A stretch of DNA of 64,000 bases, from NCBI GenBank assembly GCA_950295325.1, contig OX485807.1, positions 4,898,501 through 4,962,500 of the forward strand, written 5' to 3'. Below are positions 26,768-50,540 of this stretch, in pieces; the stretch's first letter is position 1; each line of letters opens with the position of its first letter. Below the pieces are notes generated by a model that did not search any database, was not told the origin of the DNA, and worked only from the letters and a program-made list of their open reading frames with translations. The stretch comes from Polytrichum commune (taxonomy: Eukaryota > Streptophyta > Polytrichopsida > Polytrichales > Polytrichaceae). The translations under genes and the position numbers were made by a program.

Positions 26768-26771
26768 TGTT

Positions 26772-26799
26772 AACACTATATTCGTTATTTGGAGACTTT
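26772..26799 (+). repeat. Left terminal inverted repeat
   Basis: 28 bp starting AACACTATATTCG and ending GGAGACTTT; a perfect inverted copy lies at 50509-50536. Similarity continues weakly inward (TTTTGAGACTAT against TTTTGAGACTTT in the right end's own strand). TGTT precedes it. Confidence 0.9.
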
Positions 26800-27105
26800 T
26801 TGTTAATTTTGAGACTATTTAAGGACGTGGCTTTCACATTTATAGGAATGAATACACTACAAATATGCTATGTTCCCAATATGGAAACAAATATGAAACT
26901 CAAATGCATGTAATTACACATATAAAAATAGGGAAATGGGACAATTACAACATTTGCATATAGGAAATGGATATCATATTCATTGAAGAGGGTCAAAATA
27001 CAAAATGCAAGTGGAATATCCACTATTAGGCCAAAGCCCTAGAAACACAAATCCACATCTATATGTATTTTAATATAGCCTATACATTTGGACCATGAAT
27101 AGGCG

Positions 27106-27432
27106 TCACTCTTTTGTTTTTGAAATACTATTATTAGCCTTTGCGGCCGTTTCTTTTTCTTTTGCTTTCATGGCGTCCATGGCTCTAAATATCTCAGCTC
27201 CACGACTGTAACCTTGTTTATTCCCATTCCCAGCCCTCGAATATATGCCATTTTCCCATATTGGCCGACCCCCTACCGAATAAGTGGAATACAAACGTGT
27301 TTGGGAAACCGAATGTCTTGCACTCTTTCGTAGGGCCAAACAACGATCAGACTCGCAAGTCGCAGTCTTCAGTGTTCGCCTATCCAATGACAGAGTGGAG
27401 GATGCACGTCCCACATCCATGTATATTGGGGT
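27106..27432 (-). CDS. Probable third exon of the HAD-like gene
   Basis: A 108-codon open frame ending in TAG-free sequence up to its stop, preceded on the minus strand by a good acceptor (TTGTTTCAG before ACCCC). It reads in phase 0 and would join in frame if exon 2 used the donor CCAAG/GTGCCC about 60 nt before its own stop. The product is basic with a lysine/alanine-rich tail (MDAMKAKEKETAAKANN). If the donor is not used, the HAD protein simply ends at 27540. No domain is recognised. It lies about 300 bp inside the left TIR. Confidence 0.4.
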   Translation of the reverse strand, partial: TPIYMDVGRASSTLSLDRRTLKTATCESDRCLALRKSARHSVSQTRLYSTYSVGGRPIWENGIYSRAGNGNKQGYSRGAEIFRAMDAMKAKEKETAAKANNSISKTKE

Positions 27433-27539
27433 CTGAAACAATGACCATAAATATATATAACGACGTGGGTTAGTATAAGTTACGGATGTAAGTCCGAAAA
27501 ACCCAAGAATTTGAAATGCACTAAATTAATATGCGGACA

Positions 27540-27977
27540 TCATGAACGAAAAACTTGAGAATGCCAATAGTGGGGCACCTTGGCCTTCGGGGCGGCGGTT
27601 TGATCTTCAGGGACATCGAGGGGAGTAGACACAAGCACAACCGGGACGTTCGTAAAGGCCGGGACATCAATGTGGGGTTCATCCATGCAAAGACGCCTGG
27701 TCGACCGTGGGTTTCGAACGTGCTTCTCATTGCGGAGGGGAGATGGGGATGGGGGTAGAGCGTAATTGAGCTTTGCAACCTTTGGAGGAGGGCTATCGAC
27801 AACTCCGTCTTCGAACCACGAGTCTTTGGAGTAATCCACGGCAGAGGCGGCATCGACGGCCGAAAATTGAAATAGTGAAGGCATTGAAACGTCGGTCACA
27901 CCAATGGAAGGGGAGCTGGGGCCCGGCTGAGATGTAGACATGCCATGTCCGAGACTTTGGGATGCTTGGTGAGGCAA
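27540..27977 (-). CDS. HAD-like gene, exon 2 (proline/serine-rich tail)
   Basis: Joins exon 1 across a 99-bp intron with donor GTATGAG (28076) and acceptor CCTTAG (27978), phase 0. It encodes 145 residues, rich in proline, serine and acidic residues (QPGPSSPSIG, DSPPPKVAKL, LPPSPSPLR), likely a disordered tail. No catalytic motif. A degenerate copy of the element's palindrome (TTACGGATGT...TCCG) lies just downstream at about 27478-27500. Confidence 0.6.
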   Translation of the reverse strand: MPHQASQSLGHGMSTSQPGPSSPSIGVTDVSMPSLFQFSAVDAASAVDYSKDSWFEDGVVDSPPPKVAKLNYALPPSPSPLRNEKHVRNPRSTRRLCMDEPHIDVPAFTNVPVVLVSTPLDVPEDQTAAPKAKVPHYWHSQVFRS

Positions 27978-28076
27978 CTAAGGCACAAAAATACATTTAC
28001 AAAATAAGGAGAGAAATGTTAGATATAAACATGGAGAGTCCAAGTACGGAGCCAAAAAGTATCAAAGTTCTCATAC

Positions 28077-28790
28077 CAATTTATTGAGTTCAGCAAAGCC
28101 GTACAACCTCCTAAATTCTGTATCTCTTGGGCCTAGAGGTCTATTGCCAATACGATTTGAGAGGACAAAATCCGGGACACTTCCGGAGTGATGGGCAAGC
28201 CTTCTAATGTAGGGTCCTAATTCTAACTCTAGGAAGTTGTCGTTTCTATCGCCCTCCCAAGGGTTCGGGAAAATGCAGTTGCCCGGGGGGTTGAGAACGC
28301 TCTTCGCCGGGCTGTCGTCAATGAGGAGCGTGTTCTCCGGAGTGGGCCAATAACCTTGGGGGACCCCCTCCAACATTGGGACGCCCACCCAGAGGTTCTT
28401 CCTCAGCACCTTAAGGAATTGAGGTCCGCGGCCTCCTCCGACCTTGGGTACAATGTTGCCGCTACGGTCATAAAGGTCATCGCAGTGTTCTTGACCGAGA
28501 AGCAAGCACGGCATTGCGAGTTCTCGGAAAAGGAAACTGACGACGGCCTTCGTGTTGTCCATCAGCATGGAGCTCCAGATGATGACATGGGCCAAGCCGA
28601 GGACCTCACGAAGGAAGCACCTCAAGCCGGGCCGGACGCGCACAACCTTCTTGTTAATTAGTGTATCGAAGCGCCTGCCGTAATCCATGTCTTGTGGAGT
28701 ACGGTAGGGACCCTTGGACGCACTATTGGAGATATGTGTGGATTGACAAAGCACGCCATTGAGGTCAAATATTATGAAGTTTTTCCTCAT
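28077..28790 (-). CDS. NIF/FCP1-like HAD-superfamily protein, exon 1
   Basis: 238 residues from ATG 28790 (an open frame extends 20 codons upstream without another ATG, so an upstream exon is possible). HAD motif I is FIIFDLNGVL (Asp9, Asn11), motif II VIIWSS (Ser73/74), then LKVLRKNLWVG with the usual lysine, and motif III/IV TLLIDDSPAK (Asp158/159). This is the FCP1/NIF fold, whose members dephosphorylate Ser/Thr in proteins such as the RNA polymerase II tail. The second Asp of the D-x-D motif is Asn, so general acid-base catalysis should be weak or absent; a plant NIF-like subfamily carries the same D-x-N-G pattern. Within the element it is cargo, probably captured from the host and perhaps a phosphoprotein-binding regulator. 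GC-rich compared with the surroundings. Confidence 0.8.
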
Positions 28791-29041: not shown

Positions 29042-30458
29042 CTACACTAGCAAAATTGGATCCGCCGCCGCGGGCGAAGTCGAGATTCGAACTCGAAAAT
29101 ATGCACACGCCACGAAAGCTGGCTGACTGGGAACGTCCGGACGCGCGTCCGTAAATTCGCCCTGCGTGTCTTCCACCACCAACAAATCGGCTCCACCTGC
29201 TTGCGACGCTTGCGTGCCGACGAAAGGTTGATCCTCATGCGAGGAGTCTTGGCCCCCCCGCATATGTACATCTTCATCGGCGAGGGGGGCGTCGCCCATG
29301 TTGACATCTTCATCGTCTCCTATGGCGGGAGGGGAGGGCTCTGGAGCGGCAGCAACCTAGGGAGGGGGCGGGACAACCAACGCGGGGGCCGTATAGGTGT
29401 GCTCCGGTATGTACACCGTGTGGCTGCTAGAAGGACTGCGCACCAGAACGGGGGGCACGGACATGGCGGGCTCGGGCGCTGCATACACCACCTGGGGTCT
29501 TGCCTGCAAGCTTGCCATCATGCTCATGAATTGTTGGCTTTGAGCCAAGAATTGTTGATTTTGAGCCATGAGGTCGGCGTGCCTCCGAGCAGACTCCAAC
29601 CTAGCTTGCTCCATCTCAGCTTGGATGGCGGCCATCTTCCTGGCATGCTCTTCGTTGGCCTCCCGGAGCCGCATGTCAAGCTCTTCCTTCATCCTCTTCT
29701 CCATCTTCTCGTCCAGCTCGGAGACGGACATGGGCTCTCTCTTCACCTTGCCTGGCTTGGAAGGCAAGGCGGAGATGGAAGCGTACAGCCTCACCTCATC
29801 CTCGTCTTCATCTGAGAGTTCCAAGACGGCGCCTTCGGGGTATTCGTTGTAAGGCGTCTTGTTCCTCTGCCGCCGGCTTGCACGGTAGGAGTCGATATCG
29901 GGCCTCGATATCAACTCTAGCATATCTCTACCTTCCATGGGCGGGAGCGCCGCCTGCTCACTGGGCTCTCCCCCACCAGAGGACGCCGTGCATCCGGTTT
30001 CTGCAGCAAGGTCCGCATCCCTCTCCGCCATAAGCCTTGCAGCACGAGATGGCCCCGCAGTGGAAGGAAGCCCAACTCGAGAAGTGGGAGTCCCAAAGGG
30101 TGATAGACTAGGCGTATTATGAGGCACCCGAATTGGAGTGACGTTGGGTTGCGCCTCCTCTGCATCCATGTCGTCTTCACCCAGGAGATACGCCACGCGA
30201 TACACTGGATGACGAGCAAGACCGCGCAAGTCTTCCTGCCTGGAGGGCTGTCCCCTTGGAGACATTGGATCATCGTCTCCATCGCTGCCCCACCCGCCTG
30301 CATGAGAAGGCTCCTCTCTAGAGGCAAGAGGAACAACAGGATGTGGGGTAATGATATCCAAGAAGTCATTGAGATCCATTTTCTCTGCAAGCTTCCTGTG
30401 ATCTTTGCACTCATCCATGTCGCCAACCCACAAACGAGTTAACCTACAACCCAAGCAT
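29042..30458 (-). CDS. ParB/MTase-like gene, exon 3: end of the MTase-like fold and coiled-coil tail (broken)
   Basis: Acceptor GGTGCAG at 30459; exon starts at 30458. The frame giving GCRLTRLWVGDMDECKDHRK is reached from exon 2 only if one T at 30448/30449 is removed; as written, translation stops after five codons. After that follow an acidic linker, proline-rich stretches and a predicted coiled coil (ELDEKMEKRMKEELDMRLRE, EEHARKMAAIQAEMEQARLE), then a glutamine-rich segment. An in-frame TAG near 29357 interrupts the frame, which stays open to 29042. A palindrome half-site at 29139-29155 lies in this coding end and reads FTDARP. An independent start at ATG 30418 (353 residues) is the alternative reading. 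Confidence 0.5.
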
Positions 30459-30537
30459 CTGCACCAAATAAAAAAAGTTAGTGGATTGTTGGTATCAAGA
30501 TTGAATTGACGGGGAAGATGGACATACAAACATGATG

Positions 30538-30691
30538 CAGTGTGCATTTTACGGACGTGCGTCCGTAAAATGCACACTGGGTTAGGTTTGATAACTTTAC
30601 GGCCGCGCGGCCGTAAATATGCACTGCAGCGCGGCCGCAAAGTTGAAATGAACTAGGTGGTTAAACTTTACGGTCGCGCGGCCATAAAGTT
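30538..30691. repeat. Palindrome cluster inside intron 2 of the ParB/MTase-like gene
   Basis: Sites at 30548-30569 (one central mismatch; the symmetry extends outward to 30538-30579, 42 bp), 30596-30617 (perfect, GGCC variant of the core), a half-site at about 30628-30642, and 30667-30688 (two changes). All lie in the 272-bp intron 30459-30730. Confidence 0.85.
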
Positions 30692-30730
30692 GCATCAGGT
30701 GGAGGCATGAAAGTTTTTTTAAGTACTTAC

Positions 30731-32050
30731 CAATGCCGCATAAACAAATTTGGTCCCCCCGAAGACGTTGTACACTGTCTCACTCATCACAGTCACAGCC
30801 TTCAATACTCCTATGTAAAAGTCCATTCGGAGCTCGGTTGCCGGGCAGATTGCGAACATCGCCTCGTCCATTAGCTCCTTGGGGTGTGGAGGCGGCAACT
30901 GGTAAATTTTCTTGAACACGCTCTTCGCTTTTACAGGCAAACGCCCACTTGGCGAAGACTTCCGTGTCAAGAAATAGAGACATATAGCGCCGACCTGCTT
31001 TACCCCCCTTGCTTCTTCGATGACGGCGATGCCTTCCGTCTTCGCGGGGACGTATGTGCTGTGGAAGATATTGTATTCGAGATCCATCGTCGAGTTGTAT
31101 AGGTCGACGACCGCTGCGGATCTCTCTTGGTCCACAATCCACAGCCACACGTTTGGCTCCAGAAGTGCAGGGGACCGAAAGCTCTTGAAAGATTTCAGGA
31201 AGCTGTCGTAGAAAGGGGTCCCCGGAGGAGGTTGTTTCCAAGAATTTGGAAATGCACGGAAATCAAAGATAGCAAAAGGACAACCCCGGGGGTCATCTCT
31301 CACAGTGGCCCGCGAAGCATGGGTGTCCCACTTGCCGAACTTGAATTGTGATGTCACAGCGCAAAACCTCGCGACACCCTCGAATTTGGCATTCTTCTTT
31401 CTATCGAGGAAGTGTTTATATAAAGTTGTCTCCCTTTCGTCGATAGAACCTTTCTTCTCGTTCTTCCTTGAGCGCTGGGCCAAGAACGGAGATGCTGCTC
31501 TTATCAATGCCTTCATTGAGACGCCATTGATGTGGTATGCTATTTTCAATTCCCTCCAGTTGTCCCACACAATGTCACCATCTGCATCTGTAAGGTTGTA
31601 GGCGGGTACCAATTTGCCTATCTCCCTCATAGCCAATGTCTTCTTCTTCCTGTATTCGCACCATTCCTTAATATGGTACGTTGAAGGCTTCATAAACCTT
31701 GGTCGTTTGAGGAAGATTTTTGGATACGGCGCTGTCCTTCTCGGAGTCTCCTTAAGAAGGTGTTCTGCCGCCTTGTAAAGCTCGGCATCGAGCAACCCTT
31801 GGAGGGGACGGAAGAACTCTCTGAGGATTGGAGGCACCTTAATCTTCAGGTCCTCTTTGTACTTCTTCTCCGTCTCAATGTTGATGAGTTCTCCGTTGTT
31901 GTGTGCATGGAAGACGCGCATCCAGATAGCCCAGGTCCTACCCGACGAAGTGATGAGCTTCAGTTCGCCCTTTAGATCTTGCACTGTCTTCATGCCGCTT
32001 TGCTTCATGTCAATGCTTGAGAACTTCGTCACAATCGCACTGCTGAATGC
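30731..32050 (-). CDS. ParB/MTase-like gene, exon 2: degenerate methyltransferase-like domain
   Basis: 440 codons in phase 0 between acceptor TACTTGCAG (32051) and donor TTG/GTAAGT (30730). I recognise no exact family, but the layout mirrors the permuted amino-methyltransferase at 54183-55813: a strand-loop PFAIFDFRAFP where motif IV (DPPY) is expected (about residue 690 of the fusion), a predicted strand-helix-strand NVWLWIVDQERSAAVVDLYN, and near the end VYNVFGGTKFVYAAL, which lines up with motif I (DPFxGxGT). Catalytic Asp/Pro and the glycine triad are changed, so the fold is probably inactive. The order IV before I is that of beta-class DNA amino-methyltransferases. Confidence 0.5.
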
Positions 32051-32114
32051 CTGCAAGTAGAGAAACAAATGAGTTGTTGAAATGAGATCAAAAAATGGAA
32101 TGAGAACCGTCTAG

Positions 32115-32210
32115 TTTACGGACGCGCGTCCGTAAACTTGGAGCACACAAAGAATAAAGGGAAAGTTTACAGAAAGAGTGAAGGAGAATTTACGGACGCG
32201 CGTCCGTAAA
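32115..32210. repeat. Two perfect palindromes inside intron 1 of the ParB/MTase-like gene
   Basis: Exact copies of the 22-bp palindrome at 32115-32136 and 32189-32210, 74 bp apart, in the 178-bp intron 32051-32228. The second is flanked by GAA/TTC so symmetry extends to 28 bp. Confidence 0.9.
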
Positions 32211-32228
32211 TTCATTTGGGAATATTAC

Positions 32229-33518
32229 CTGCCATTTGGGATTCTTGACGACTGCGTTGTCCCTCTCTTTTGGTGGACAGCCGTGCTCCTCCCACAAGGT
32301 CCTACCAGCCACGATGTTGGCTGCCCATGACGCCTCAAACGCTTTGATTTTGTTTGTCTGGTTGAGGAAGGCAGATATGGCGATGAGCTGATTGGAGTCC
32401 TCTGAATGCACGAGAAGTACCTTCCAATATCGGATTGTGGATTTCAGAGGGCTCTTCCAATTATCGTCTGCGAGGAGAGCTTTTGCCGCTTCCACGCTAT
32501 GCTGGCCGTCCACGATGTAGAATTCCCCTTGCTTAATAATTGGCCAATGTTCTGGTGTGACCTCCACGATTGGATCCTTTGGGGTCACACATATGGTCTG
32601 CCGGTCAGCTTTCGGGTTGTTCATGATGTTGTTCATCTGCCACCAGACCCCGCTCTCTTCTTGCACCCGAGTATTTATACTCTCGGTGCCCTGGTGACAT
32701 TTATAAACATCCACGTCAAATGTGAAATACCTGCCCATTGGCCAGCAGGCTTTCGTTTTTTCGTCGAACTCTTGTTGAATTTTTGTTGATAGATCAGAGT
32801 TCGGGCGTTCTCCTTTCTTCAGAAGTGGTGCGACAGTAAGGGTGGAGCTGACATCTGGACCTTCGGTAAGTCCAGATGACTCCATCTGTGAATGGGAGCG
32901 TTTACTGGATGGTTTGCTCCCTCTCGATGCTCCACTTTGGGACGGTTTTGGTCCTTCCGGGACTGTCTGTGGAACACGCGGTTGTCGTTCAGAAACGACT
33001 TTCTTCTTCCTTTTCCCCTTTCTGGACTTCAGGACTGCCCCATTCACTCTCGTGACATTGTTGAGGAGTCTTCCAAGCCGCTTACCCGTCCAAGGTGCAT
33101 TGCATGCATAGTCTTGGAATTCAGTTGCAAGATTGAAGCAACCCGCATCCGGGCTGCCATTTTCGCATTCAGCCTTGTGGAATGGATGTTTGTGCTCATG
33201 AAGAAGAATTGTGACTCTGTCATCTTGTTTTTCAAGATCTATGACGACATAGTCACCTTGGGCCACTGCACACTCTACTGACCAATTTTTAACTCTAACC
33301 CATTTATCTACGTCTATATCTTTGGTATTCATTTGATACCCAAATCTAAGTACGAATGTGTCATTCTCAAGTTTCTCTACGTAAACTGTCCAGTTGTCTA
33401 CTGTGTCTTCGACTGGCTTGTAGTGATCGTTGTGGCTTATATCTTTGATGGCGGGTGGAAGTGGAGGCGGAAGAAACTCAAATGCCTGGTCAATTGCAGG
33501 TCTTTTTGTAAATGCCAT
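32229..33518 (-). CDS. ParB/MTase-like gene, exon 1: ParB-like DGQHS domain
   Basis: 430 codons from ATG 33518, which directly follows TTTGCAG, so it may instead be an internal exon start. Donor CAG/GTAATA at 32228. The first 190 residues are unassigned, then comes a basic Ser/Pro-rich linker (RKGKRKKK, SKPSSKRSHSQ). Residues about 290-400 carry FYIVDGQHSVEAAKALL (DGQHS at 337-341), which resembles the ParB/sulfiredoxin-like core (VDGxHRxxAxxxL), where R is usual and S is seen here. Prokaryotic and phage proteins often fuse ParB-like domains to DNA amino-methyltransferases, the same order as suggested here. If the donor is ignored the frame runs into the intronic palindrome and stops as FTDARP. 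Confidence 0.6.
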
Positions 33519-33563
33519 CTGCAAATGCAAAAAACAATGCTTAGCATCATGATCAATGTCAAG

Positions 33564-33997
33564 TTTACAGACGCACGTCCGTAAACTTTCCACAAGTTGT
33601 TTTGAATTATAATGTCAGAATGAACTATCCGAAAAGATTTTGCATATGTCAATACGAAATTTCACATGTAGTTTATGGACGCGCATCCGTAAACTATCAA
33701 CGGGTAGTTGGGGATGAGAATCTCAACTATGAACAAAGATAAGATTTAATAAGATAGTTCTAGTTTACGAACGCACGTCCTTAAACTAGTAGTTGGGTTT
33801 ACGGGGTTAGCACTAATTTACGGACGTGCGTCCGGAAACTAGGAATGGGGTTTACTTGGATGTCACTAGTTTACGGACGCGCGTCCATAAACTAGGAATG
33901 GGGTTTACTCGGATGTCACTAGTTTACGGACGCGCGTCCGTAAACTGGGAGTGGGGTTTACTTGGATGTCACTAGTTTACGGACGCGCGCCCGTAAA
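33564..33997. promoter_or_regulatory. Phased palindrome array upstream of the ParB/MTase-like gene
   Basis: Seven sites start at 33564, 33672, 33764, 33817, 33870, 33923 and 33976. The last five are spaced exactly 53 bp and embedded in a 53-bp repeat with GGGGTTTACTYGGATGTCACTAG. Most carry one to three changes from the consensus; 33923 is perfect. The array lies immediately 5' of the minus-strand gene, where a promoter is expected, and 53 bp is close to five helical turns, so the sites would face one side of the DNA. A binding-site role is inference. Confidence 0.7.
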
Positions 33998-34040
33998 TTA
34001 GGAAAATATACTGTCCATTAGTAATAATATTGTTTTTTAA

Positions 34041-34086
34041 ATATATCCAGAACTTACGGACGCGCGTCCGTAAGTTCTGGATATAT
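34041..34086. repeat. 46-bp perfect palindrome
   Basis: The core (CTTACGGACGC plus reverse complement) is extended by ATATATCCAGAA on the left and its exact complement on the right. No mismatch in 23 base pairs. Confidence 0.95.
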
Positions 34087-34118
34087 GTTGCATGCTTCAC
34101 CCACCTGGTGCGTCAAAG

Positions 34119-34140
34119 TTTACGGACGCGCGTCCGTAAA
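34119..34140. repeat. Perfect 22-bp palindrome
   Basis: Consensus copy flanked by AAG/CTT, giving 28 bp of symmetry. It is the last site before the low-complexity block. Confidence 0.95.
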
Positions 34141-34159
34141 CTTCAAGCCCTACATTGGT

Positions 34160-35110
34160 TAATCTGGTCCTTGTTGAGAGGGTTCCGGATTTTCAGGAAG
34201 GTGGTTTTGTATATGATGCAAAATACAAGCAAACCAGCAAAGAACAAAAAAAACCAAGCAATCAAACAATCAAACCAGCAAGTAAAAAAACAAGAAATAA
34301 ACTAAAACACAATCAAACAAGCAATCTATGTACTTATGCAAGAGGCCAGCAAGTAAACAAACAACCACGCCAGCAAGCAAAGCAAAGCCAAGCAGCAAGC
34401 ACAAGCAAATCAAACAACTGTAAGCAAGCAAGCACACAAGCAAAAGAGAGAAAAAACAATCACAAGCAAGCACATAAACAAAAGATTAAAAAACAATCAC
34501 AAGTAAGCACAAGCAAGCACAACCAGCTAGCAAGCACAAACAATGACACAAGCAGCAGGCAATCAAACAATTAAAAAAGCAAGTCAAAGCAAGAAATTAA
34601 CTAAAACACAATCAAACAAGCAACCTATGTCATTATGCAAGAGGCCAGCAATCAAACAAGCAACCAAGCCAGCACAACAAAACACAAGCAAGCACAACCA
34701 GCAAGCACAAGCAATGCAAAGCAAAGCATAGCAAATCAGCAAAGCAAAGCAAAGCAAAGTAAAGCACAAGCCAAGAAAGCACAAACAAAGCAAAGCAAAG
34801 CAAAAGCAAAGCAAAGCAAACCAGCAAGCACAAGAACAAACACAAACACAAACAACAAACAACCTTGTGAGGTGACCAGGAGCGCCAACAGCAAGAGGAG
34901 CAACGCCACCAGCAAGAGGAGCGCGGAGAGGAGAGGAGCGCCAACAGCAAGAGGAGAGGAGCGCGGAGAGAAGCGCCAACAACAAGAGGAACGCGGGGAG
35001 GAGAGGGTTTAGGGTGACAACAACAAACCCTAGAGAAGCAAGAGAGGAGCGTGATAAGAATGTGAGGAAGGAGAGCGAGAGAGGGGAGGCGGAGAAATGA
35101 GAGGGTGAAA
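34160..35110. repeat. Low-complexity block: CAAGCAAGCAC-type and purine-rich repeats
   Basis: From 34215 to about 34865 the plus strand is built of AAGCAA, CAAGCAAGCACAAG and CAAAGCAAAG words. From about 34880 to 35090 it changes to AGCGCCAACAGCAAGAGGAG and GGAGAGGAGCGC units. Long open frames on both strands here have extreme composition and are not genes. It may be the 5' untranslated or promoter region of one of the divergent genes. Confidence 0.75.
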
Positions 35111-35270
35111 ATGGGCAAATGAAACCCTAAAACCCTTAAGTACTCAAGAGGAGCCCCCCAAACGCCCCGACTCCCAACGTCCCATCCACCCCGCACCCCA
35201 TCGCCACGTGGCTGAACCCTATAGGTTCATATTGGAGAGGTATGTGGCACACCTCTCCCTCTTTAGTAAG

Positions 35271-36928
35271 ACACGTTTGGAAATCACAAAAAATGTCGTA
35301 TTATCGACATGTTGTCTTCTCGTTAATATGACAAACGCTGTAAAATTGTCGTACTATTGAGCGAATAAAAAAACAAAAGAAATATGAGCTTCAAAACACA
35401 CACAACGGATGTAAGCAATTATTATATATATTGTATGAAATAATAACGTATAACTTCAAACAAATACAAGCGTTCTCAATAATTATTGAAATAAGAGTCC
35501 AGTGATCTGAGTCTAGTGTTGCCTACCTAAGTGAAACAAGTTGTCTAATAAAAAATTAGACAACAATGATGCATAACGTTGACGCTTTAATATTGTACGT
35601 GAAAAAACATCATCCAAATGAACCAAATGCAAATTAACATTAAAATCAAAGCCTTCTGCATTATTGATTCCCAAAACGGCATCCACCAACTCAACAACCA
35701 TTATACACACTTCTTGCTCAATATCATATGCATATAAGTATTAGTTGACATGTCACCATCATCCAGTCGCAACATCCAATTACACTAAATATCACTAACC
35801 CTATGAAAGTAAGGTACTTTTAACTGTGAACTCAAACACTAAATTTCAACTATTAATGGTAATAAGTGGAAGTGACATATAATGTGTACCATTAATTATA
35901 TGATTAAAATTTAACAATGACAAAAGGAGAAGGGACATGGTAGTAACATAGCATGTAAGATACAAATTGTAAAAACATAGCACCAGTGACAATTGGGTTC
36001 TGCACCTTGTACTCGAATATAGTCTTTGTTTAAAATAATCTCTTGAAACCCTTATTTTCATTAAATAGTGGCAGGCTCTTGGTCTGAAACCTAAATATCA
36101 CCCTTATTTCATTTTTTCCATGTCGACATAAATATTTATATATTTCACATTTTCATTCGTAGGTTTATTTGGGAATTGTTGTTCTGCCAACCGACTATGG
36201 TGCTAACCCAACTCACACCATATTACTTCATAACTCCACATGATAGATTGTTTGATATTAGTCCTTCAATGTAGCATCATATTTATGACAAAGCCCAACT
36301 AACATAAGGTGAAGATGCATGACCTGGAGTCATATTAGTCACCTTTCATTTATTAATACCCTAACCAAACCCATTCTACAATACAAATCCTAATGTTTAT
36401 TAAGTTCACAATGATAAGCCTAGGGAAGTTTTCGGTATTGAAACTATAGGACAATATGAGGTTGAGTAACTCAAGTGTAACATTTTTTTGTGGAGTTGTT
36501 GCAATATGAAGGTAAGTGGACTTTAAATGACTAGTACACTAACTATCGCTTATTATTACGAATTACGATATGCTACAACTATTTATTGTATGATAGTATA
36601 TCATTGTCCACAATTAAATTACATCAATAAAAAAAATTTAAACATTAAGCATTTTGTAAATACAAACATCGACATATGCCACTCTTTGGACTCCTCTATC
36701 AAGAGTCTTTGAAAATATTTGTATTTGTTTGGAGTTATTAGCTCTTATTTCATATCATCTATATTGCCTATTAAACTTGTTGTATATATATCTTTGCGCT
36801 CATTTTTATTATGATAATTTCGTATTCCCTCAATAATATGACAACTTTACGCCACTTGTCATATGAATGAGAAGACGATACCTAGATAACATGACCTTTT
36901 TGTGTTTCTCACACTTGTCATACTAAAG
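35271..36928. mobile_element. Nested 1.66-kb TIR element
   Basis: About 105-bp imperfect inverted ends: the left starts CTTTAGTAAGACACGTTTGG, the reverse complement of the right starts CTTTAGTATGACAAGTGTGA, and both go on through CACAAAAA, TGTCTTCTCRTT, ATATGACAA and AATTGTCRTAYTATTGAG. The interior is AT-rich with no recognisable transposase. No target duplication found. A small hairpin, GGAGAGGT...ACCTCTCC, lies just outside at 35234-35260. Confidence 0.7.
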
Positions 36929-39682: not shown

Positions 39683-39735
39683 CATACACTGCTTATATTT
39701 TATCTCATTCTTCATTTGGCTCTCTTGTAGTGGCC

Positions 39736-40714
39736 ATGGATTCCGACGTCGGTGAAAGTGCGTCCGATTTCTCCTCGGAACCGTCAAGCTATGCTAGCGA
39801 GTTTGAAGATGTCGTGGAACAGGAAGCTACAAATGGTGTGGCCGATGCAGATGATGAAATCATACCACCATGTGAGGGTTATTCGCGGGAGCAGTGGGTT
39901 GATCTTGATGTTGTACTACTCAATGCATGTGCCGTTCCCGTGGCCAACGGTGTTTGTAGGAACTCGAATCCAACGGATTGTATTGATGCAAAACCCCTCG
40001 GGGAGGACGATGTTGGGGTGTGCATATTGAACTCCTTACTTCCATCGGAAGTGCCTCTTGGTTGGAGGTTCTCTCTCCGTCGATGGCCTTTGCGAAGTGT
40101 TCATCACGATGGTGTGAGCTTGTGGGATCAATCCCGCCGATTTGAGCAACTGCAACAGTCTTTGTTCGCCACAATGCGTCCCAGACAAGGTCGTCGTAAA
40201 TATGATTCCGTTCGTGTGCCTCGTGAACCCACGCAGCGTCGTCGAGATCATACATTGGGAGACACATCTATTAGGTCCGTAGCCACAAAGGATTGTTGTG
40301 CGAAGAAGTGCTGCCAACTATTTCCCCGTGGCAAAATCAAATCTTTGAGGCAAGAGATGTGGCTTGCCGACTTTCGTATGCGGTCTGCCAAGAAACTTGA
40401 AGTACATCGCAACATGCACTTGGATGCCGGAGGTTGTAAGGTTGTGACCTTGGAAAATATAGAAGTTTGTTGCCGGGCATGGTACATTATTCATGCCGTT
40501 TCAAAGGCAGATTTTTATAGGTTCCGGAACTACTCGCTGCAAGGAAGGCGTTCTCGGTTTCATGGCAACTCAGGTACAAAGAAGCCCAGGGAGGCAACAC
40601 TCCAAGCGGCTGCAACTCTGTCAACCATCATTATGCCATTAGCGGATGCGATGCCACACAAGACACGCACTTTGCCGTCGGGGGAAAAGGTTGTTCAGAT
40701 GGTTTTACCCACAG
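39736..40714 (+). CDS. DUF7869-type protein, N-terminal exon part (candidate transposase)
   Basis: Starts at ATG 39736 in a strong context (GCCATGG). The first 50 residues are acidic/serine-rich. Around residue 187 lies CCAKKCC followed by QLFPRGKIKSLRQEMW, a cysteine cluster typical of the N-terminal half of DUF7869 proteins. Coding is cut at 40714 by an LTR retrotransposon and resumes in frame at 47768 after removal of the element and one 5-bp duplication (CACAG). No other stop or frameshift is seen. The full reading frame, with the part after 47768 and exon 2, is 977 residues. Eight palindromes lie upstream. Confidence 0.8.
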
Positions 40715-41687
40715 TGTCGCAACCCTTGCTAGGTCCCTTAACAATCTTGCCAATTTTCGTTTCTAGCAAAGGTTACGAGCGCTAACCATTCGCATTCCGC
40801 CATGCTAATGGTTAGCTCCTCTTACCCCGGACCAATAGTTCATAGGAGGGAACCAACCCTCCTACTTTGCTTTCGGGACTCACCCCTTAATTGGTAACCC
40901 ATTTCCCCAATGTGGACTTCCATCCATGGAAGTCCAATCCTATGTTGATCATCGCGTTGCCGGAGCAACACTACAACAACCCGAACCATACTAGGCAACT
41001 ATGGCCCCACAATGGGCCAATGCCCATGGAGGCCGTGCCGTTCGGCCTCGGGTGGGTGAGGCCACACCACCTCACCCATATAAGCCTCTAGGACTCTACA
41101 CGGAGCCCCTACCCCACCGCCAACCAACCTCTTGTCTCTCTACCAAGAGTTGGGGCCAAGTGGACATTTTCCCTTAGCTGCTGGGCCTAGAACCCCCCCA
41201 GCAGCTTCAGACCATCATAACTTCCTTGTATGATGTCTGATCATAACAACCAACCACTCCATCCTCATCTACGCTTCACGTAGATGCCGATGGACTCCTC
41301 ACTTGCCCCATTCGGGCAAGTCTTGAGGAAGTTATGCGTGTTTGAACCTTGGCAGTCCCGGGAATCACTCCCAGGCACTGCTGTACCAGGGCGCTGTCCC
41401 GGGACAGCGCCCCACTCAAATGGCCATAACTCCTAGCTCACACCTCCGATTGAGGTGTTCTTGAGCTTTCTAGAATCACCACGCCATGAACTACGCATAG
41501 CTCATGGCCTTACCCTTGTGCCTCCTAGTCTTCGTGGGTGGGAGGCGTTCCCAACGCCCGGGGCCCTCACCCACACTAGGATCACTTGGGCCCTCTCACC
41601 AACGGCGCCACAAGTCCCGGGTGTCACTCCGGGGTCCCCCTTGTGCCCATGGTGTTTCGGGCACTCCTCATGGAGAGGTGCGCGACA
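40715..41687 (-). repeat. LTR (3' LTR of the minus-strand element)
   Basis: 973 bp, apparently identical to 46790-47762. Contains small hairpins (GCTGCTGGG...CCCAGCAGC; CTTGCCC...GGGCAAG; GCGCTGTCCCGGGACAGCGC). Part of it (about 41212-41390) is homologous to the spacer at 57053-57392. Confidence 0.95.
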
Positions 41688-41699
41688 CTCACCCCCACC
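41688..41699 (-). other. Polypurine tract
   Basis: On the minus strand TGGTGGGGGTGAG abuts the 3' LTR, the expected primer for plus-strand DNA synthesis. Confidence 0.65.
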
Positions 41700-42964
41700 A
41701 AACGGAGTCGATGCCCTCATCGACTATACTCGTAGTCGGCACACCAATTCTCAAGTTGCCATCCTCTATGGTGCGGCATTGTGTTTACCTTAGGGCGCGA
41801 CCCCCACAATGCATCTTCAAATTTGGCATAGTCCCAAAGGTGTCGTTCCTAGGTGGTCCGTTAGCGACCTTGGATCTCTCCTCCAAGGACCTAACCTATA
41901 CTAGACCCACCTACTTTGGGACTCACTTGGGTTGCCCCTCCTTTGGGGCCTCCCCCGTTAGGCTCCACTAGCCTAACGTGACACATCTAGGCGAGACCTC
42001 AACGCTTCCACTAAGTTGTCTCGGTTGCAACTCCGAGATGGCTTTCCATTGTTAAGCCACGCCTCGATCGCACGGGGGTGATGCCAAGTCCCGCCCGACT
42101 CGGTTCCCACTTTGCTCTTTCGAGACATGGGTTCATGACTCCCATGCGCCAACTTTCGTTAGCTCGCGGGTAGCACTTTTATGAGCACGCGCCATCACCT
42201 TGTCCCCGCCCGGACAAGCCCACAATTAAGAAGTTTCTTGGTTTTATCCAAGGCCCCTCCAAGCCATGGCCCCCAATTACTCGGCTTACCCAACCTAGTT
42301 TGGCATGTCTATTCCCCCTCTTCCATTAACCAAGCACAAGTACAAGACTAGGACCTCATCTCATACTTTTCTCTTTGCACCACTAAAGTTAGGATTTTAT
42401 TCCCTCAAGCCAAAGAACAAGTTCATGTCGTGGAGCAATTAACCTCGAAGCTAAGTGTGCTACTAGCGTCTCTCCCCCACTAAAGGAGATTGATGTCCTC
42501 ATCAATGCCTACGCTTCATTTTATTGGAATCCTTAGCCTTAGTTTCTTCAAAGTGCTTCACCAATTCATTGGTGTTCACCATGTCTCTTGCCGCCACCCA
42601 AGCGGTTTCTTTCTCATGGTATCCTCACCATTTCACCAAGTACTCATTTGTACATTTTGTTTTCATTTTCACTTGGGCTTCCTACACTTGAGGATGCCCT
42701 CCTACCTCATGTTCCAAGTGACCTCCACAAGGTCGGGACGTGGCCTAATCACTTGCTTGTGATCGGGCCACAAGGTGTCGTCCTAAAATGACTTTCGTAA
42801 TGAGACATGAAATGTCGGATGCACTTTGATGTCCGGCGGTAATTCCAACTTATACATGTCCTTGAACACTTGTTGCACAATGGAAAACGAAGTTCCAATT
42901 TTGGACATGAACTTTTGAAGTAAGGCCTTTGGGCAAGGTGAAGTTGTCCACATTCAACAACACC

Positions 42965-43921
42965 TTATTGGCCCACCTCATACTCCACTTCGCGTCTTCC
43001 GGCATTGATTTGCACTCCGTAGCACCTTCGGGCTTTCTCCACCAACAACTTGGTCATCTCCAAGACTTGTTTACCATCCTTGGCCAAGTCCTCACCATCT
43101 TGGTTCAACTCTAGTGTTGAATGTGCCCCCTCGAGAGCTAGGTTAATAGGTTGGAGCGCATCCACTCCATAAGCCACCACCAAAGACCACCCCTTGGTAG
43201 CCAAGTGCGTGGCTACATTGCAATTACACTCCGCTCGACCCACATAGTCCGCCCAATCTCCTTGGTCCGCCCCCACCAAGTTCCTCAAGTATTGCTTCAA
43301 GACTCCATTCACACGCTCCGTTTTCCCAAATATTTGGGAATGCAAGGCCGTGCTAAACCTTAGTTTCATTGCGACCTCCTTAGAGAAATGCATTGAAAAT
43401 GCACTTGTGAACTTTGGATCTTGATCCCACACAATCACTCTTGGCAACCCGTGGTGCCTCAACCATCCTTTGAGAAAAGGCTATGCGGTCTCCAACGCGG
43501 TGGCGGTTCCCACAATCAGCACCATGTGTGCCAACTTGGCAAACCGCTCTACCATCAACAAGATGGCATCATACCCATGTGACTCCGGCAAACTTGTGAT
43601 CAAGTCCATGCACATACTATGCCATGGCGCCGACGGGATAAGCAACGGTTGCAAGAAACCGCCTTGCTTTTGGTAAGAGGCTCGGTTCACTTGGCACTTT
43701 ATTCACGCCTTCACAAAGTGGGTTATATCCTCCTTTATGCACCGCCAATGGTACCTCCATGACACCATTCTATGGCGGTTTTTTCTTTCTCCTCTATGGC
43801 CGGCAATAGGACTATCACATTTTTCCTTCAAAACCGATAGCCTCAACTTGCCTTGAGGCACATACACCCGACTTTGCTTGCACTTGAACAATCCGTCCAC
43901 CAACTTAACCTCTTTGAGCAC
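42965..43921 (-). pseudogene. Integrase remnant of the LTR element
   Basis: Broken into at least three frames. 43703-43921 holds the N-terminal zinc-binding region (VDGLFKCKQSRVYVPQGKLR, AGHRGERK). 43481-43690 starts the core with the first Asp (SMCMDLITSLPES). 42965-43462 holds the second Asp (VWDQDPKFTS) and the Glu (KTERVNGVLKQYLR), followed by the C-terminal part. Stops and frame changes separate them, so no intact integrase is encoded. Confidence 0.8.
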
Positions 43922-44352
43922 CTTGCTCTTGCGAAGCTCACCTAAAAGCTTTTGTGCCTCGGGGTAGTTAATTTACCCCTCCCGTATCTTGCATCACAAG
44001 TTTCCTTCGCCGGCACACATTAGCCACAAGGTTTGGATGGTTCTCATTGCTTGGAACTCATCCGGTCTACTTAGCGCATCCGGCACCACATTTTCATGGT
44101 CCGGTTTGTGGATCAAATCCACCTTCATAAGCGCCAAACTATCATGCCACCGCAATGACTTGGCGCTCACTTGCGCTTGTATATGTTAAAATACTTTTAG
44201 GACACATTGTCCATGTAGACCTTTGCTTTGTGCGACCCCAAATAGTGTCGCCACATCTTCAAGCAATGCACTACGGCAAAGAAGTTCTTTGTCATGAGTT
44301 GGTTGTCTTCTTTGACAACCATCGAGCCTCAAGCCCCCATATGCAAAGGCCA

Positions 44353-45040
44353 TCCATCTTACATTAACAATCCGCCATTGGCAAAGTCATTCACCCCCGT
44401 ATGCACCTCAAAAGGTATGTCAAGCTCCGCGAACTTGAGCACAGGCGGCGAAGAGAACTTGGTGTTAAGCTCCCCAAAGACTCATGACAAACATCATCCC
44501 ACTCTTGGGATAGCCATTTCTTCCACAAGTCGAACCATCGAGCTTCATGCTCTCGTATGCAATGGCCATCCATCTTGCATCAACATCCGCCAATGGTAAA
44601 GTCCTCGCCCCCCGTATGCACCTCAAAAGGTTTGTCAAGCTCCGCGAACTTGAAAACGGGTGGTAAAGAGGAACTTGGTCTTAAGCTCCTCAAAGACTTG
44701 GTGGCAAGGCTCATCCCACTCTTGGGATAGCCATTTCTTGCACAAGTTGGACAAGCTTCTACAACCATGGAGCTTAATGCTCCCATAAGCAATGGTCCTC
44801 CATCTTGGATCAACATCCGCCAATGGTAAAGTCCTTTGCCTTCATGTGCACCTCAACATGCTCATGAAAATCCGAAACTTAACCACATCTTGTGAAGAGA
44901 ACTTTTTCTTGAGCTCCCCAAAGGCTTGGTGACAAGGCTCATCCCACTCTTGGGATAGCCATTTTTTCCAACATGTTGACTAAGGTTCTAGCAACCTTAG
45001 AAAAACCATGAATGAAGTGGTGGTAGTAGTTGGTTAGGCC
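44353..45040 (-). repeat. Triplicated RNase H start within the LTR element
   Basis: The block CCATCTTRSATCAACATCCGCC, CAAAAGG, CTCCGCGAACTTG, ATCCCACTCTTGGGATAGCC repeats three times, with unit starts about 44353, 44570 and 44808 (217 and 238 bp apart). Each encodes the same RT/RNase H junction (FAELDKPFEVHTGGEDFTIG and variants of it). Only one copy is expected in an active element; the catalytic Asp position reads G in at least one copy. Confidence 0.75.
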
Positions 45041-45280
45041 AACAAATGACCTAAGCCCTTTTCTTGAGTCAAGGGCCAATTCTCTTCTTGGATTGCCTTG
45101 ACATTCTTCATGTTCATCCACCAACTTCCTTTGTCACCACATACCTCAAGAACTCAATTTCTCGTTGAGCAAAGTTATTTTTCACTCCTTGGCGGTAACT
45201 TTTTGGGCAACACATTGGTGAATACATCCTTGTATCTCACCAACATCCCACCAATGTGATTTGGAGGAGGCCCATCTTTC
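44939..45280 (-). pseudogene. Reverse-transcriptase remnant with palm deleted
   Basis: The minus strand reads IGGMLVRYKDVF and LPKKLPPRSE, the N-terminal edge of RT, and passes at about 45178 straight into FAQREIEFLRYVV and then GLRSFVGLTNYYHHFIHGFS, the segment after the YVDD motif. The catalytic palm (about 500-600 bp) is therefore missing. Confidence 0.7.
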
Positions 45281-46775
45281 CTAGCCTCTCCATACATTCC
45301 TTGGAGTTCCTCCAATGGAACCATGACCATTATGTTTTCTATTTTTCAGTTGGTCCATTAAGACCAAATTCAACTTGGGTCCTCCTACCATAGGAGTCCT
45401 TGTCAATTTGAACATCAACTCATTGCCATTATGACACATCATAATGCACCGCAAGCACACCGGCTTGCACCTCACATCTTTCATGTGAGTTTCAAAGAAG
45501 GCGGCCTTCACAATGACATGCATTTCATCTATTTCACTTGGTGTGAAATTTTGACAAAAATCCAATGTCCCACATTGAAAGGTTACATGCATCGCGGCCT
45601 CCTTTGTCTCATGCGGTTTGCCCTTTCCAAACCGACCTTGGTGGGCTTGCCCGCTCTACCAATCGGCAAGCCCCAACTCCCTTATGAGTTTTGGGCTCAA
45701 GAAGGCATGGCTTGCCTCTTTGTCAACCCATTAGACGTTTGTCCCATTCATTTGAGCCTCAAGATATAAAATAGTTGGCCTTGGCTTAAGGCTACTAGCC
45801 TTGGCCACAATGCCATCGTCTTACATTTGGTCCTCGGCAACTTGGCTTGGCTTGGTCCGCAAAGCCAACTTTAAACATTTCGTCCGCGGGACAAATTGGT
45901 TTGGTGCCACAAAACCAATTTCTAATAGTTTGTCCGCAAAACAAACATGTTTTGCCTTGGTAGCACAAAGCCACCTTCCCACACTCCGTCCACGGCACGA
46001 ACATGAATTGCCTTGGTAGGACAAACCCACCTCCCAACATTCCGTCCGCGGCACAAGTATGATTTGCTTTGAAAGCATAAAGCCACCTTTCAACATTCCG
46101 TCCGCGGCACCAACATGTTTTGCCTAAGTAAAATGGACCAAACAATTTGCACTCATTTCTTTGGGACCTACTTTGGCTAAAGCCACTTGTGGTGATGCGC
46201 CGCCAAACTTCTCTTTAGGACCATCGGCTTCAATGCTCTTGCAAACTTGATGGTCCCCACCATGTCCTCAAGAAGCCTTAGGGACTTAAACAAGGCATCC
46301 ACCACCCGCTTTTAAAACCCCACCTAAAAGGATGCATTTCTTAGAAAGCTCGTCCGTTTTAGGTGTATCCTTCATTTGTGCGTTTGAATAGCGCACATAG
46401 GCCTTAAGAGACCCCGGGTGCCTCATTAGCACCAAATTCATTCCAACATCAATACCTTCCAGGCATTTCGAATTGGAATTTCAATCCAACATTAATGCCC
46501 TCCAAGGTTTTGGGTGCTTTCGGTATTCTAGGCCCCAAAAGTTTTTTGAGGTTTCCGGGAGCCCTTTTCAAAGCACTCCTCCATTTTCCTTACCAAATCC
46601 ACCCTCATGCCCACCATTGTCATTAGAACCAATGGTATGGTCAAATTCCACTTGCACATGATCCTTGTTCCAATTTGAGCCTCACAACCTTTTGGAAACC
46701 CCGGGCTCACCATCATAACCCGCATTTTTGATAGCCATGTTTCCCTCAAAGTGCGAGCTCAAAATTTGGAACCCT
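45281..46775 (-). pseudogene. Gag/protease-region remnant
   Basis: Short frames only. From about 45836 to 46120 five units of 50-56 bp recur, each with CCGTCCGCGGCAC and GCCTTGGTAGYACAAAGCCA-like sequence, so the gag-like part has expanded in tandem. No zinc knuckle or protease DTG is recognised. Confidence 0.55.
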
Positions 46776-46787
46776 GCTCTGATACCA
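46776..46787 (-). other. Primer-binding site for initiator tRNA-Met
   Basis: TGGTATCAGAGC on the minus strand, two bases inside the 5' LTR, exactly complementary to the 3' end of plant initiator tRNA-Met. It proves the minus orientation of the element. Confidence 0.95.
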
Positions 46788-46789
46788 AG

Positions 46790-47762
46790 TGTCGCAACCC
46801 TTGCTAGGTCCCTTAACAATCTTGCCAATTTTCGTTTCTAGCAAAGGTTACGAGCGCTAACCATTCGCATTCCGCCATGCTAATGGTTAGCTCCTCTTAC
46901 CCCGGACCAATAGTTCATAGGAGGGAACCAACCCTCCTACTTTGCTTTCGGGACTCACCCCTTAATTGGTAACCCATTTCCCCAATGTGGACTTCCATCC
47001 ATGGAAGTCCAATCCTATGTTGATCATCGCGTTGCCGGAGCAACACTACAACAACCCGAACCATACTAGGCAACTATGGCCCCACAATGGGCCAATGCCC
47101 ATGGAGGCCGTGCCGTTCGGCCTCGGGTGGGTGAGGCCACACCACCTCACCCATATAAGCCTCTAGGACTCTACACGGAGCCCCTACCCCACCGCCAACC
47201 AACCTCTTGTCTCTCTACCAAGAGTTGGGGCCAAGTGGACATTTTCCCTTAGCTGCTGGGCCTAGAACCCCCCCAGCAGCTTCAGACCATCATAACTTCC
47301 TTGTATGATGTCTGATCATAACAACCAACCACTCCATCCTCATCTACGCTTCACGTAGATGCCGATGGACTCCTCACTTGCCCCATTCGGGCAAGTCTTG
47401 AGGAAGTTATGCGTGTTTGAACCTTGGCAGTCCCGGGAATCACTCCCAGGCACTGCTGTACCAGGGCGCTGTCCCGGGACAGCGCCCCACTCAAATGGCC
47501 ATAACTCCTAGCTCACACCTCCGATTGAGGTGTTCTTGAGCTTTCTAGAATCACCACGCCATGAACTACGCATAGCTCATGGCCTTACCCTTGTGCCTCC
47601 TAGTCTTCGTGGGTGGGAGGCGTTCCCAACGCCCGGGGCCCTCACCCACACTAGGATCACTTGGGCCCTCTCACCAACGGCGCCACAAGTCCCGGGTGTC
47701 ACTCCGGGGTCCCCCTTGTGCCCATGGTGTTTCGGGCACTCCTCATGGAGAGGTGCGCGACA
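46790..47762 (-). repeat. LTR (5' LTR of the minus-strand element)
   Basis: 973 bp, same length and, as far as compared, the same sequence as 40715-41687. Followed by the CACAG duplication and then by the resumed DUF7869 coding frame. Confidence 0.95.
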
Positions 47763-47767
47763 CACAG

Positions 47768-48193
47768 GGACAAAATGGAAGAACATACTCGTGGATGTTA
47801 ATGAAGTTGGTGAAAATGTTGGATGTGGGCCGATTTCGTTGTCAAAATTGAGTGTGATCAAGAATCAACAGTTCGCTGAATACATTACGAAGAGACCCGG
47901 GGATAAGTTTGCTAGGTGTTCTACTTGTGAAAAATATAAAGGCCTTCGAGACGCACATCCAATAGGGACCGAGTCGCACACCAGACATCAACAGAAATAC
48001 ATTGAGCATGTCAACAACCAGGAGGCACACCGTCAAGACTACTACAAGAATCGCGCCTTATCGATAATGAGGCCGAACGAGGTGTTGACAATCATTCATG
48101 ACAAAATGGACCATGCGAAGACCGCTTGCCCTTGTTATGCGTGGAAAATAAAGGCCACAGATGGATATTTCAAGTTGCCAATATCTGTCACAG
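47768..48193 (+). CDS. DUF7869-type protein, rest of exon 1 after the LTR insertion
   Basis: Resumes in phase at GGACAAAATGG and is open to the donor ACAG/GTTCGT at 48194 (phase 1). It encodes FARCSTCEKYKGLRDAH, a C-x2-C zinc-like motif followed by a basic, helical stretch with HQQKYIEHVNNQEAHRQDYY, the usual segment ahead of the DUF7869 core. Confidence 0.8.
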
Positions 48194-48240
48194 GTTCGTT
48201 GGTTTTCATTTTTTTGGCGTGCCCACATACTCATTTTTAA

Positions 48241-48266
48241 GAGTTACGGATGCGCATCCGTAACTC
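48241..48266. repeat. 26-bp perfect palindrome in the DUF7869 intron
   Basis: GAGTTACGGATGC and its reverse complement, a variant of the element's palindrome, lies within the 168-bp intron 48194-48361 and is its most conspicuous feature. Confidence 0.9.
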
Positions 48267-48361
48267 GTCTGTGCATGGTTGTTCCTTACTTGCGGCAATA
48301 TCATATTTCCTTCATATATATGATATTGGAATGTACTTCTCATTTGTATGTCTTAATTCAG

Positions 48362-49890
48362 GTATGATTGCACATGGCCATGTGGACGTCAAGTATGCAC
48401 ATTATGGCTTGGATTTCTATCCAGGCGACGCAAATCATACCGTAGGGTCTTTTGCAAAACTTCTACGAGATCTTGAGAGTCCGCCAACATCATCCTCGCG
48501 TGCTCTTTTTGTTGGATGTGGAACAACTCCGATTTATGAGGCTGTGCTAGAGGGGAAGGAAGTTTGTCTATCTTCACTTCAAGAACCGCCTGAACAACCC
48601 GTTCTTGCTAAACCTTTGCCTCGAACTCTACACGTGCAACTTGACAATTGTGCCAAAGATAACAAATGTCGATACGTGTTTTGTTTCTGGTCATTGCTGG
48701 TAGCCAAGGGCATTTTCAAAGAAGTGTTTGTGTCTTTTTTGATGGTTGGCCACACGCACGATGACATCGACGCTTCATTTGGACGTTGGAGTATGAAGTT
48801 GCACGAGGAGGATTTTCCGACAATTCCTCTTCTCATGAAATCATATATGGATTTGGACAATGTGCCAGTCATTCCACATTTGATTGAAGAAGTGCCCGAT
48901 TTCAAACGGTTTATAAAACCATTCATTCTTAAGGGGTCTGACCGACTAGTGGGCCACACCAAGGCTCAACAATTCCGATTTTATATGCGTGACGATGGTC
49001 TGCCCGCCATGCAATTCAAAGTTTTGTGCACTTCCCCGAATTGGGGTCCGGAGGAAGGGATACTCATTTGGCGCAAAAACGAAGATGGCAAATGTGTGCT
49101 ACCTGATGGTGAGCCGAAGCCTTGCACACCCAACCCCATGAGGAATGGGCCAGAAATCATCAAAGGTATATCTGGATTCATTGAGTATTGGAAAGAATTG
49201 TGCGAGGAAGACATCACAAGACGTGTTAGGGATACCCACGAACCATTGATTGCGTATTGGGATCGCATTCGCACGGCATTGATAGCACCCGATGTTGATA
49301 CACATTCATGTTTGACACAAGGGTTTTGGCCACAAAGTCGAGTGACAGTCGTGGAATATGAGGCCATGTTGTTCAACAATGGGAACGTTCGTGAAGAGTT
49401 CGCTGTGGACGATCATTATGTTGGCCCTGCTCGCAATCGACCGGAGCCGTCGTTTCGTGTTGGGGTTGATTGCCACGAAGGTTATTTGCTGCTCATACGT
49501 GCTGGGGATGAGGAGCATCCCAAGCCAATTTGGTTGGTGAAAGCATTGTCATCACCAAACTTTGTTTCAACTAGTCCAAATTTTCGCCAAATTGAGGTGG
49601 AATATTGCCGTCCAAGCACCAAAGATCAAAATGTGCTCCGGACATATTTAGGGTGGGACACCAAAAAAGGTTTCAAATGGACAATGGACTCATCATACGA
49701 ACCGGTTTGGATAAACACAGATACCATACTTTGTGCTTGGAAACCACGCAAAGGTTCGAAATCAGAGACAATGACCATCCCGCAAAAATATATAGATTTT
49801 GCCAAAGACAATTTGGCACGTATCGCAGCTGCGGAAAACGATCTTGAAAATGGAAATGAAGTTGAAGATGAAGATGAAGAGAGGGAATGA
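48362..49890 (+). CDS. DUF7869-type protein, exon 2 with the core domain
   Basis: Acceptor TTAATTCAG at 48361; the phase fits. The core carries KYAHYGLDFYPG, then TLHVQLDNCAKDNKCRYVF (about residue 553) and VSFLMVGHTHDDIDASFGRW (about residue 595-612), the hallmarks of DUF7869. Acidic residues at the ends of predicted strands (LDF, QLDN, DID) could be a DDE/D-like triad of an RNase H fold, which is why I propose a transposase role; this is inference. The C-terminus is strongly acidic (EVEDEDEERE). The exon is intact, which together with the fresh LTR insertion suggests the host element was functional until recently. Confidence 0.85.
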
Positions 49891-50508
49891 TATTGACGTA
49901 CGTCGGGACCAAAGTTAGTTGAAATGTGTATTTGTTTGTCATTAATATATGACATTGGGGTTGAATATTATATTAGACACATTTTATAGATTACAACTAG
50001 TATAATATCATTGCATGACTGTATTGATTTACGGATGTGGAATCACCCTTCCCATGCGCTATCAAATGTTTTCTAGTATATGTTTATATTTACGGATGTG
50101 GAATCCAAACTATTTAATATTGCATATTATGTTAATTTGTAAATTCCAATTAACATTGTCAATTTATTTTAAGTATTGTTGCAGTTGGGATGTGCCATTC
50201 AATTCAACCACAATAGGCCAAGAGCTTTATGTTTCGGATGCGATTCCAAGAGTCAATACATATAAAATTAGATGGCTATTTATGGATTCATTACTTTTGT
50301 TCAACACAATCCCAAAAAAACAAATAATCGTGTAATTGTGTGATTTGATTCTCATCCCCATACTTACTATATTTAGTAATATATATAGTTCCATCACATA
50401 TGGATTTCTAAAACATTATGATGTAATTGTTCCCGATGTTCCCGATGTTCCCTACGTTCACAATATTCGCATCCGAAACTATGGGTCCAATTTATTTTGA
50501 GACTTTCC
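49891..50508. other. Right subterminal region of the large element
   Basis: Contains two direct half-palindromes TTTACGGATGTGGAATC at 50028 and 50089 and CCCGATGTTCCC repeats near 50435. No gene is recognised. Confidence 0.55.
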
Positions 50509-50536
50509 AAAGTCTCCAAATAACGAATATAGTGTT
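50509..50536 (-). repeat. Right terminal inverted repeat
   Basis: Perfect inverted copy of 26772-26799, ending CGAATATAGTGTT and followed by TGTT at 50537-50540. Confidence 0.9.
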
Positions 50537-50540
50537 TGTT

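Follow-up and report, generated by a model that had tools for sequence, protein, structure and literature searches.

What kind of mobile element occupies positions 26772–50536 of a 64,000-nt stretch of the genome of the moss Polytrichum commune, and what do the 22-bp palindromes scattered through its interior do? The stretch, called here the window, corresponds to C5:4898501-4962500 of a 407.8-Mb assembly, on which all genome-wide searches were run. A sequence-only reading had proposed a large, previously undescribed DNA transposon outside every superfamily that it listed. We find that the element is a real DNA transposon with terminal inverted repeats (TIRs) and many copies. It is probably a giant, multi-gene, cut-and-paste transposon of Sola1 type in the nuclear genome, ~16.8 kb long, with a DUF7869 transposase, a ParB-like accessory gene and palindromes of its own. 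We propose that these palindromes, which are directly observed, may serve as parS-like binding sites of the ParB-like protein.

The ends of the element are sharply defined. The left TIR, AACACTATATTCGTTATTTGGAGACTTT, lies at 26772–26799 on the forward strand and its exact reverse complement at 50509–50536 on the reverse strand; both are 28 bp long and perfect, each occurs once in the window, and TGTT flanks them on both sides (26768–26771 and 50537–50540), just as the sequence-only reading had stated. Its expectation that other loci would carry both TIRs was also borne out. A pattern made of the TIR's first 25 nt matches 349 genomic sites when at most one mismatch is allowed, against none for a reversed control pattern, and 83 of 100 among the matches listed are exact. 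Searching with the left 129 bp returned 674 candidates and 40 scored matches, eight of them identical; in eight loci cut out at left-end matches, the window included, the start base is identical and the flanks appear unrelated by eye.

Twelve loci (10 + 2) were fetched as 20-kb stretches. Both TIRs are present in nine of these, and in every case the two 4-bp flanks are identical (CTAA, AAAG, ATTA, CCAG, AGGA, CTTA, CAAA, ATTG and ATTG). The right end was not seen within the 20-kb stretch at the other three, C7b, C4s and C6a; at C6a (C6:13534688-13577734) the right partner is found 43 kb from the left end, and TTGT flanks the pair at either end. This locus is included in 12 further pairs of exact TIR sites, 16.5–43 kb apart, 11 of which have identical 4-bp flanks. 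Counting the window, 21 of 22 TIR pairs are bordered by identical 4-bp flanks, representing 18 distinct duplications with ATTG occurring four times; the single miss is C4:8945685-8967844, whose flanks differ. When flank lengths from 2 to 10 were tested, 4 was the sole matching length in 20 of the 22 pairs; of the remaining two, one also matches at length 2 and one at no length.

An empty site, of the kind that had been proposed as a check on the element, was found for copy C1a, which sits in a tandem array: its flanks joined with a single CTTA give 119 nt that match a neighbouring array unit at 98.3% without gaps, this unit being paralogous, not orthologous. Nine loci were joined in this way and compared with the window and the fetched stretches; two, C1a and C5b, gave a match across the junction, that of C5b being only 78% and gapped and hence not counted as an empty site. 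That the element is a chance inverted repeat or an assembly artefact has next to no probability and is ruled out by the 349 TIR sites, the 4-bp duplications in all but one pair and the empty site. The family has apparently been active recently.

Comparison with eight full-length copies of the same subfamily (16.5–17.9 kb) resolves the structure of the window copy, which measures 23,765 bp. Its extra length is due to one long terminal repeat (LTR) retrotransposon of 7,048 bp (40715–47762), which has identical LTRs and a 5-bp CACAG duplication, interrupts the transposase gene and is at this place in none of the eight copies. The earlier estimate of a ~15-kb ancestor carrying nested insertions was therefore right about nesting, but the ancestral length is ~16.8 kb and there is only one insertion; a second candidate, 34.2–38.9 kb, is ruled out because all eight copies contain it. 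The retrotransposon itself shows a 976-bp run of LTR identity. It also has internal tandem repeats, its LTRs contain palindromes, and a stretch 79% identical to its LTR occurs near the right end of C1a.

From left to right the element comprises a NIF phosphatase-like gene and a ParB-like gene, both on the reverse strand, a palindrome cluster, a spacer, a second palindrome cluster and the transposase gene on the forward strand. The spacer (34152–38940) contains no palindromes of this kind and is present in all eight full-length copies, as are the low-complexity CAAGCAAGCA-type repeats at its start (34220–35010). Two further changes are private to the window copy. Near 29,145 (29136–29155) it lacks about 92 bp that the other full copies keep between two palindromes, a loss that looks as though the two palindromes had recombined, and a premature in-frame stop, found in none of the eight full copies, lies early in exon 3 of the ParB-like gene. 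Together, this stop and the recent retrotransposon in the transposase gene would have disabled the window copy.

The transposase gene begins at 39682–40714 with the N-terminal region, where the retrotransposon cuts it, continues at 47763–48193 up to an intron (48194–48361) and ends with an exon (48362–49887) for the catalytic core and a C-terminal barrel. This last exon matches DUF7869 (PF25273, E 1.9e-39), and no other Pfam family passes its cut-off in the protein. Structure prediction gives an RNase H fold with conserved acids D423, D545 and D585/D587, and DUF7869 is accordingly likely to be a DDD transposase with this fold. Pfam has no functional label for DUF7869, and a full-text literature search returned no paper naming it.

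The ParB-like gene is read from the reverse strand in two exons (32229–33518 and 30731–32050) and a probable third that encodes a low-complexity tail (29042–30458), separated by intron 1 (32051–32228) and intron 2 (30459–30730). The first splice is supported because P0144, an 863-aa database protein, runs through the exon 1/exon 2 junction with 68% identity over 98%. Exon 1 carries a ParB/sulfiredoxin-fold domain at about residues 264–390, the ParB fold being supported by structure prediction. The region in exon 2 resembles a methyltransferase at motif level, by eye, and its library search gave no hit. An FGG[ST]K block is conserved there, and a DPPY-type motif is expected at a methyltransferase active site; the presumed position has [DN]FR instead in seven of seven sequences, so that the region looks inactive. 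Near the left end, two open reading frames with a probable intron, judged by eye, make up the NIF/HAD-phosphatase-like gene (approximately 27540–28790, reverse strand; PF03031, E 1.3e-13). Of the gene set named by the sequence-only reading, the HAD-like and DUF7869 assignments hold and the ParB-like fold is predicted, with the methyltransferase part at the motif level just described.

Beyond these assignments, NCBIfam and PHROGs searches gave nothing useful for the ParB-like protein or the transposase, Foldseek searches with their models gave no match at E < 0.001 for either, and a sequence search of the PDB gave one weak chain each, with unrelated names. In viral contigs, neither a relative of the ParB-like protein nor an exact palindrome was found. 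Genome contigs yielded a single locus, L001, whose contig is assigned to a cyanobacterial metagenome-assembled genome; the locus carries a moss-like DUF7869 transposase gene in a single open frame, and the contig is probably a eukaryotic contaminant of the cyanobacterial bin.

To which superfamily does such an element belong? Several are rejected on their ends and target-site duplications. CACTA/EnSpm elements make 3-bp duplications and have termini starting CACTA, whereas in 21 of 22 pairs here the flanks match at length 4 but not at length 3, and the element starts AACACTA. Kolobok duplicates TTAA, which is seen in none of the 21 duplications. KDZ and hAT elements duplicate 8 bp and Maverick/Polinton elements 6 bp, and none of the 22 pairs matches at either length. 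The Ginger transposase is described as resembling Gypsy integrase (PMC10741241).

Sola had been left out of the superfamilies first considered. According to the description in PMC10741241, Sola elements encode a DDD transposase, produce 4-bp duplications, have TIRs of 11–1124 bp, are mostly 2–9 kb and in some cases >15 kb long, and occur in Physcomitrella. The moss element agrees in its predicted DDD transposase, duplication length, TIR length, large size and moss occurrence, and differs in its accessory genes and palindrome arrays, which that description does not mention. A closer counterpart is Sola1-1_Ec32 of Ectocarpus, 21.5 kb long, with a ParB-methyltransferase gene opposite the transposase (PMC12477816). 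From what this source reports, the two are alike in giant size and in having, on the strand opposite the transposase, a gene with a ParB-like DNA-binding part and a methyltransferase part, the latter putative in the moss protein. They are unlike in length (21.5 vs 16.8 kb) and in the moss element's D/N-F-R at the presumed methyltransferase active site and its NIF phosphatase gene. The same source reports similar accessory proteins, ParB-methylases, from transposons of green and red algae and suggests that these could bind to the transposon that encodes them and modify it; the string 'palindrom' does not occur in its main text.

The match to giant Sola-1 rests on the 4-bp duplications, the DDD transposase predicted from fold and conserved acids, and the ParB-like gene on the opposite strand. 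Since this likeness is judged from published descriptions, not from Sola1 sequences, and DUF7869 has neither a functional Pfam label nor a paper found under its name, a new superfamily unrelated to Sola1 retains some credit; we nevertheless consider it improbable, as duplication length, predicted DDD fold, giant size, moss occurrence and the opposed ParB-type gene all fit published accounts of Sola and giant Sola-1. The earlier description as a large TIR transposon with 4-bp duplications is upheld, and its claim of a previously undescribed kind is not. What is new is at most the element family and its palindrome arrays, not the superfamily.

The palindromes are confined to the element within the window: all 24 core matches to TTTACGGACGCGCGTCCGTAAA and its variants fall inside it, with 15 belonging to the ParB-like gene or the region upstream of it and nine lying at the transposase gene. 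Genome-wide, TTTACGGACGCGCGTCCGTAAA has 878 exact copies, against none for a control. Palindromes lie mostly upstream of genes and in introns, with no clustering at the TIRs. One cluster precedes the ParB-like gene (33564–34141, partly a 53-bp tandem array) and another the transposase gene (38945–39683, in part a 67-bp tandem array). Within the ParB-like gene, two palindromes (32115 and 32189) lie in intron 1; intron 2 holds three (30548, 30596 and 30668, two being variants), and the transposase intron one (~48242–48264). A full-text literature search, narrow in wording and covering few subscription papers, returned no description of such palindromes.

Two loci beyond the window's subfamily (F1) revealed further lineages, and across these the palindrome changes. 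F2 has a ParB protein with 69–74% identity and the same palindrome as F1, type A. F3 has a ParB protein 40–53% identical and palindrome TTTACGAACGNNCGTTCGTAAA, type B, with no transposase within the stretch fetched. F4 has a ParB protein 32–38% and a transposase 55–72% identical, and palindrome GTTTGGGTCGNNCGACCCAAAC, type C. With up to two mismatches allowed, so that types A and B, which differ by one letter per half, cross-match, the F1 copies and the window contain 20–25 type A palindromes and none of type C. F2, F3 and F4 were seen in part and their counts are lower bounds: at least 10 type A palindromes in an interrupted F2 element, at least 21 of type B in F3, and at least 31 of type C with none of type A or B in F4. 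In the ParB-like gene, the first two introns sit at identical places in F1–F4, with GT...AG borders; little else in them aligns by eye, yet every one of them contains between one and three palindromes of the type belonging to its lineage, some of these being variants. The F4 transposase intron has none. Within each lineage the core letters, beyond their pairing, are conserved.

The NIF/HAD-like gene (28074–28790) is common to F1, F2 and F3, the F2 and F3 versions being 60–87% identical to the window's, and its first motif is DLNGV. Directly beside the F4 element lies L032 (C3:55654251 on), an internally deleted 7.4-kb F2 element with both TIRs and an ATTG duplication, which lacks the ParB-like gene and has no palindromes. 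In several ParB proteins from databases, read-through tails are, by eye, translations of palindromes of this kind, for example LRTRVRK and LRPRGRK. Outside the element, a 139-bp satellite array (55927–64000) reaches the window end and is inverted at 57.05–57.39 kb; most of its units carry a palindrome near GGTGTCTCGGTACCGAGACACC.

Lineage-specific letters at conserved places point to a sequence-specific, element-encoded partner. The strongest candidate is the ParB-like protein, since its divergence tracks that of the site. In bacteria, parS is a palindromic site present in several copies. The moss element resembles the ParB–parS system in its predicted ParB-fold protein and several palindromic sites, and differs in that its site is 22 bp long and lineage-specific and resides on a eukaryotic transposon; no ParA-like gene or parS-binding helix-turn-helix was identified in it. 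We put forward, tentatively, a eukaryotic transposon-borne self-recognition system in which the ParB-like protein and ~20–31 cognate palindromes would co-evolve tightly, private to each lineage as a family address. An alternative partner is the N-terminal region of the transposase, binding the palindromes for autoregulation. Spm/CACTA elements carry subterminal repeats bound by their transposase, and here one cluster of palindromes precedes the transposase gene, whose intron holds one more; in F4, a tandem array ahead of that gene accounts for 17 of the 31. We regard this alternative as rather doubtful: palindromes do not cluster at the TIRs, most of those in the window (15 vs 9) lie at the ParB-like gene, and between F1 and F4 the transposase remains 55–72% identical while the palindrome is wholly changed and the ParB-like protein falls to 32–38%.

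Lineage history confounds the joint divergence of protein and palindrome. Pairing of the arms beyond the core weighs against a simple binding site. In the 81 of 96 palindromes kept for the test, bases outside the core (positions 12–15) pair in 133 of 324 cells, where shuffling gives 90 on average. A stricter control reduced each tandem array to a single unit and shuffled each lineage separately; pairing then stands at 108 of 276 against 80, a value reached by 1 in 10,000 shuffles. Such pairing would fit palindromes that act as RNA hairpins in leaders and introns, in splicing or small RNAs, or that arose as by-products when hairpins templated mutations and tandem units were duplicated. Under the same control, however, the excess comes from F1 (45/76 vs 26), is weak in F2 (18/40 vs 13) and F3 (33/100 vs 26) and is absent from F4 (12/60 vs 15), and the core letters are conserved, not pairing alone; we consider this explanation unlikely. 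Hairpin formation or hairpin-templated copying is a possibility for F1 only and no general rule.

The element probably works as follows. The DUF7869 transposase would pair the 28-bp ends, excise the element and join it to staggered target cuts, generating the 4-bp duplications; ends and duplications are observed, and catalysis is suggested by the predicted fold and conserved acids. The divergent accessory gene would supply a ParB-like protein with an inactive-looking methyltransferase-like region. An element-encoded protein, most likely this one, would read its lineage's 22-bp palindrome as a self-mark, and this recognition may regulate expression, resist silencing or organise the element, which the NIF-like phosphatase gene would complete.

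These findings raise the question of how ~20–30 dispersed sites change together. For ParB-methyltransferase proteins of giant elements in algae, binding and modification of their own transposon have been suggested, in passages that name no binding site (PMC12477816); the moss element shows numerous candidate sites, and their wholesale replacement between lineages makes the suggestion of self-binding directly testable. The element also places a giant Sola1-like architecture, described from brown algae, in a land plant, and gives DUF7869 a likely function as a transposase.

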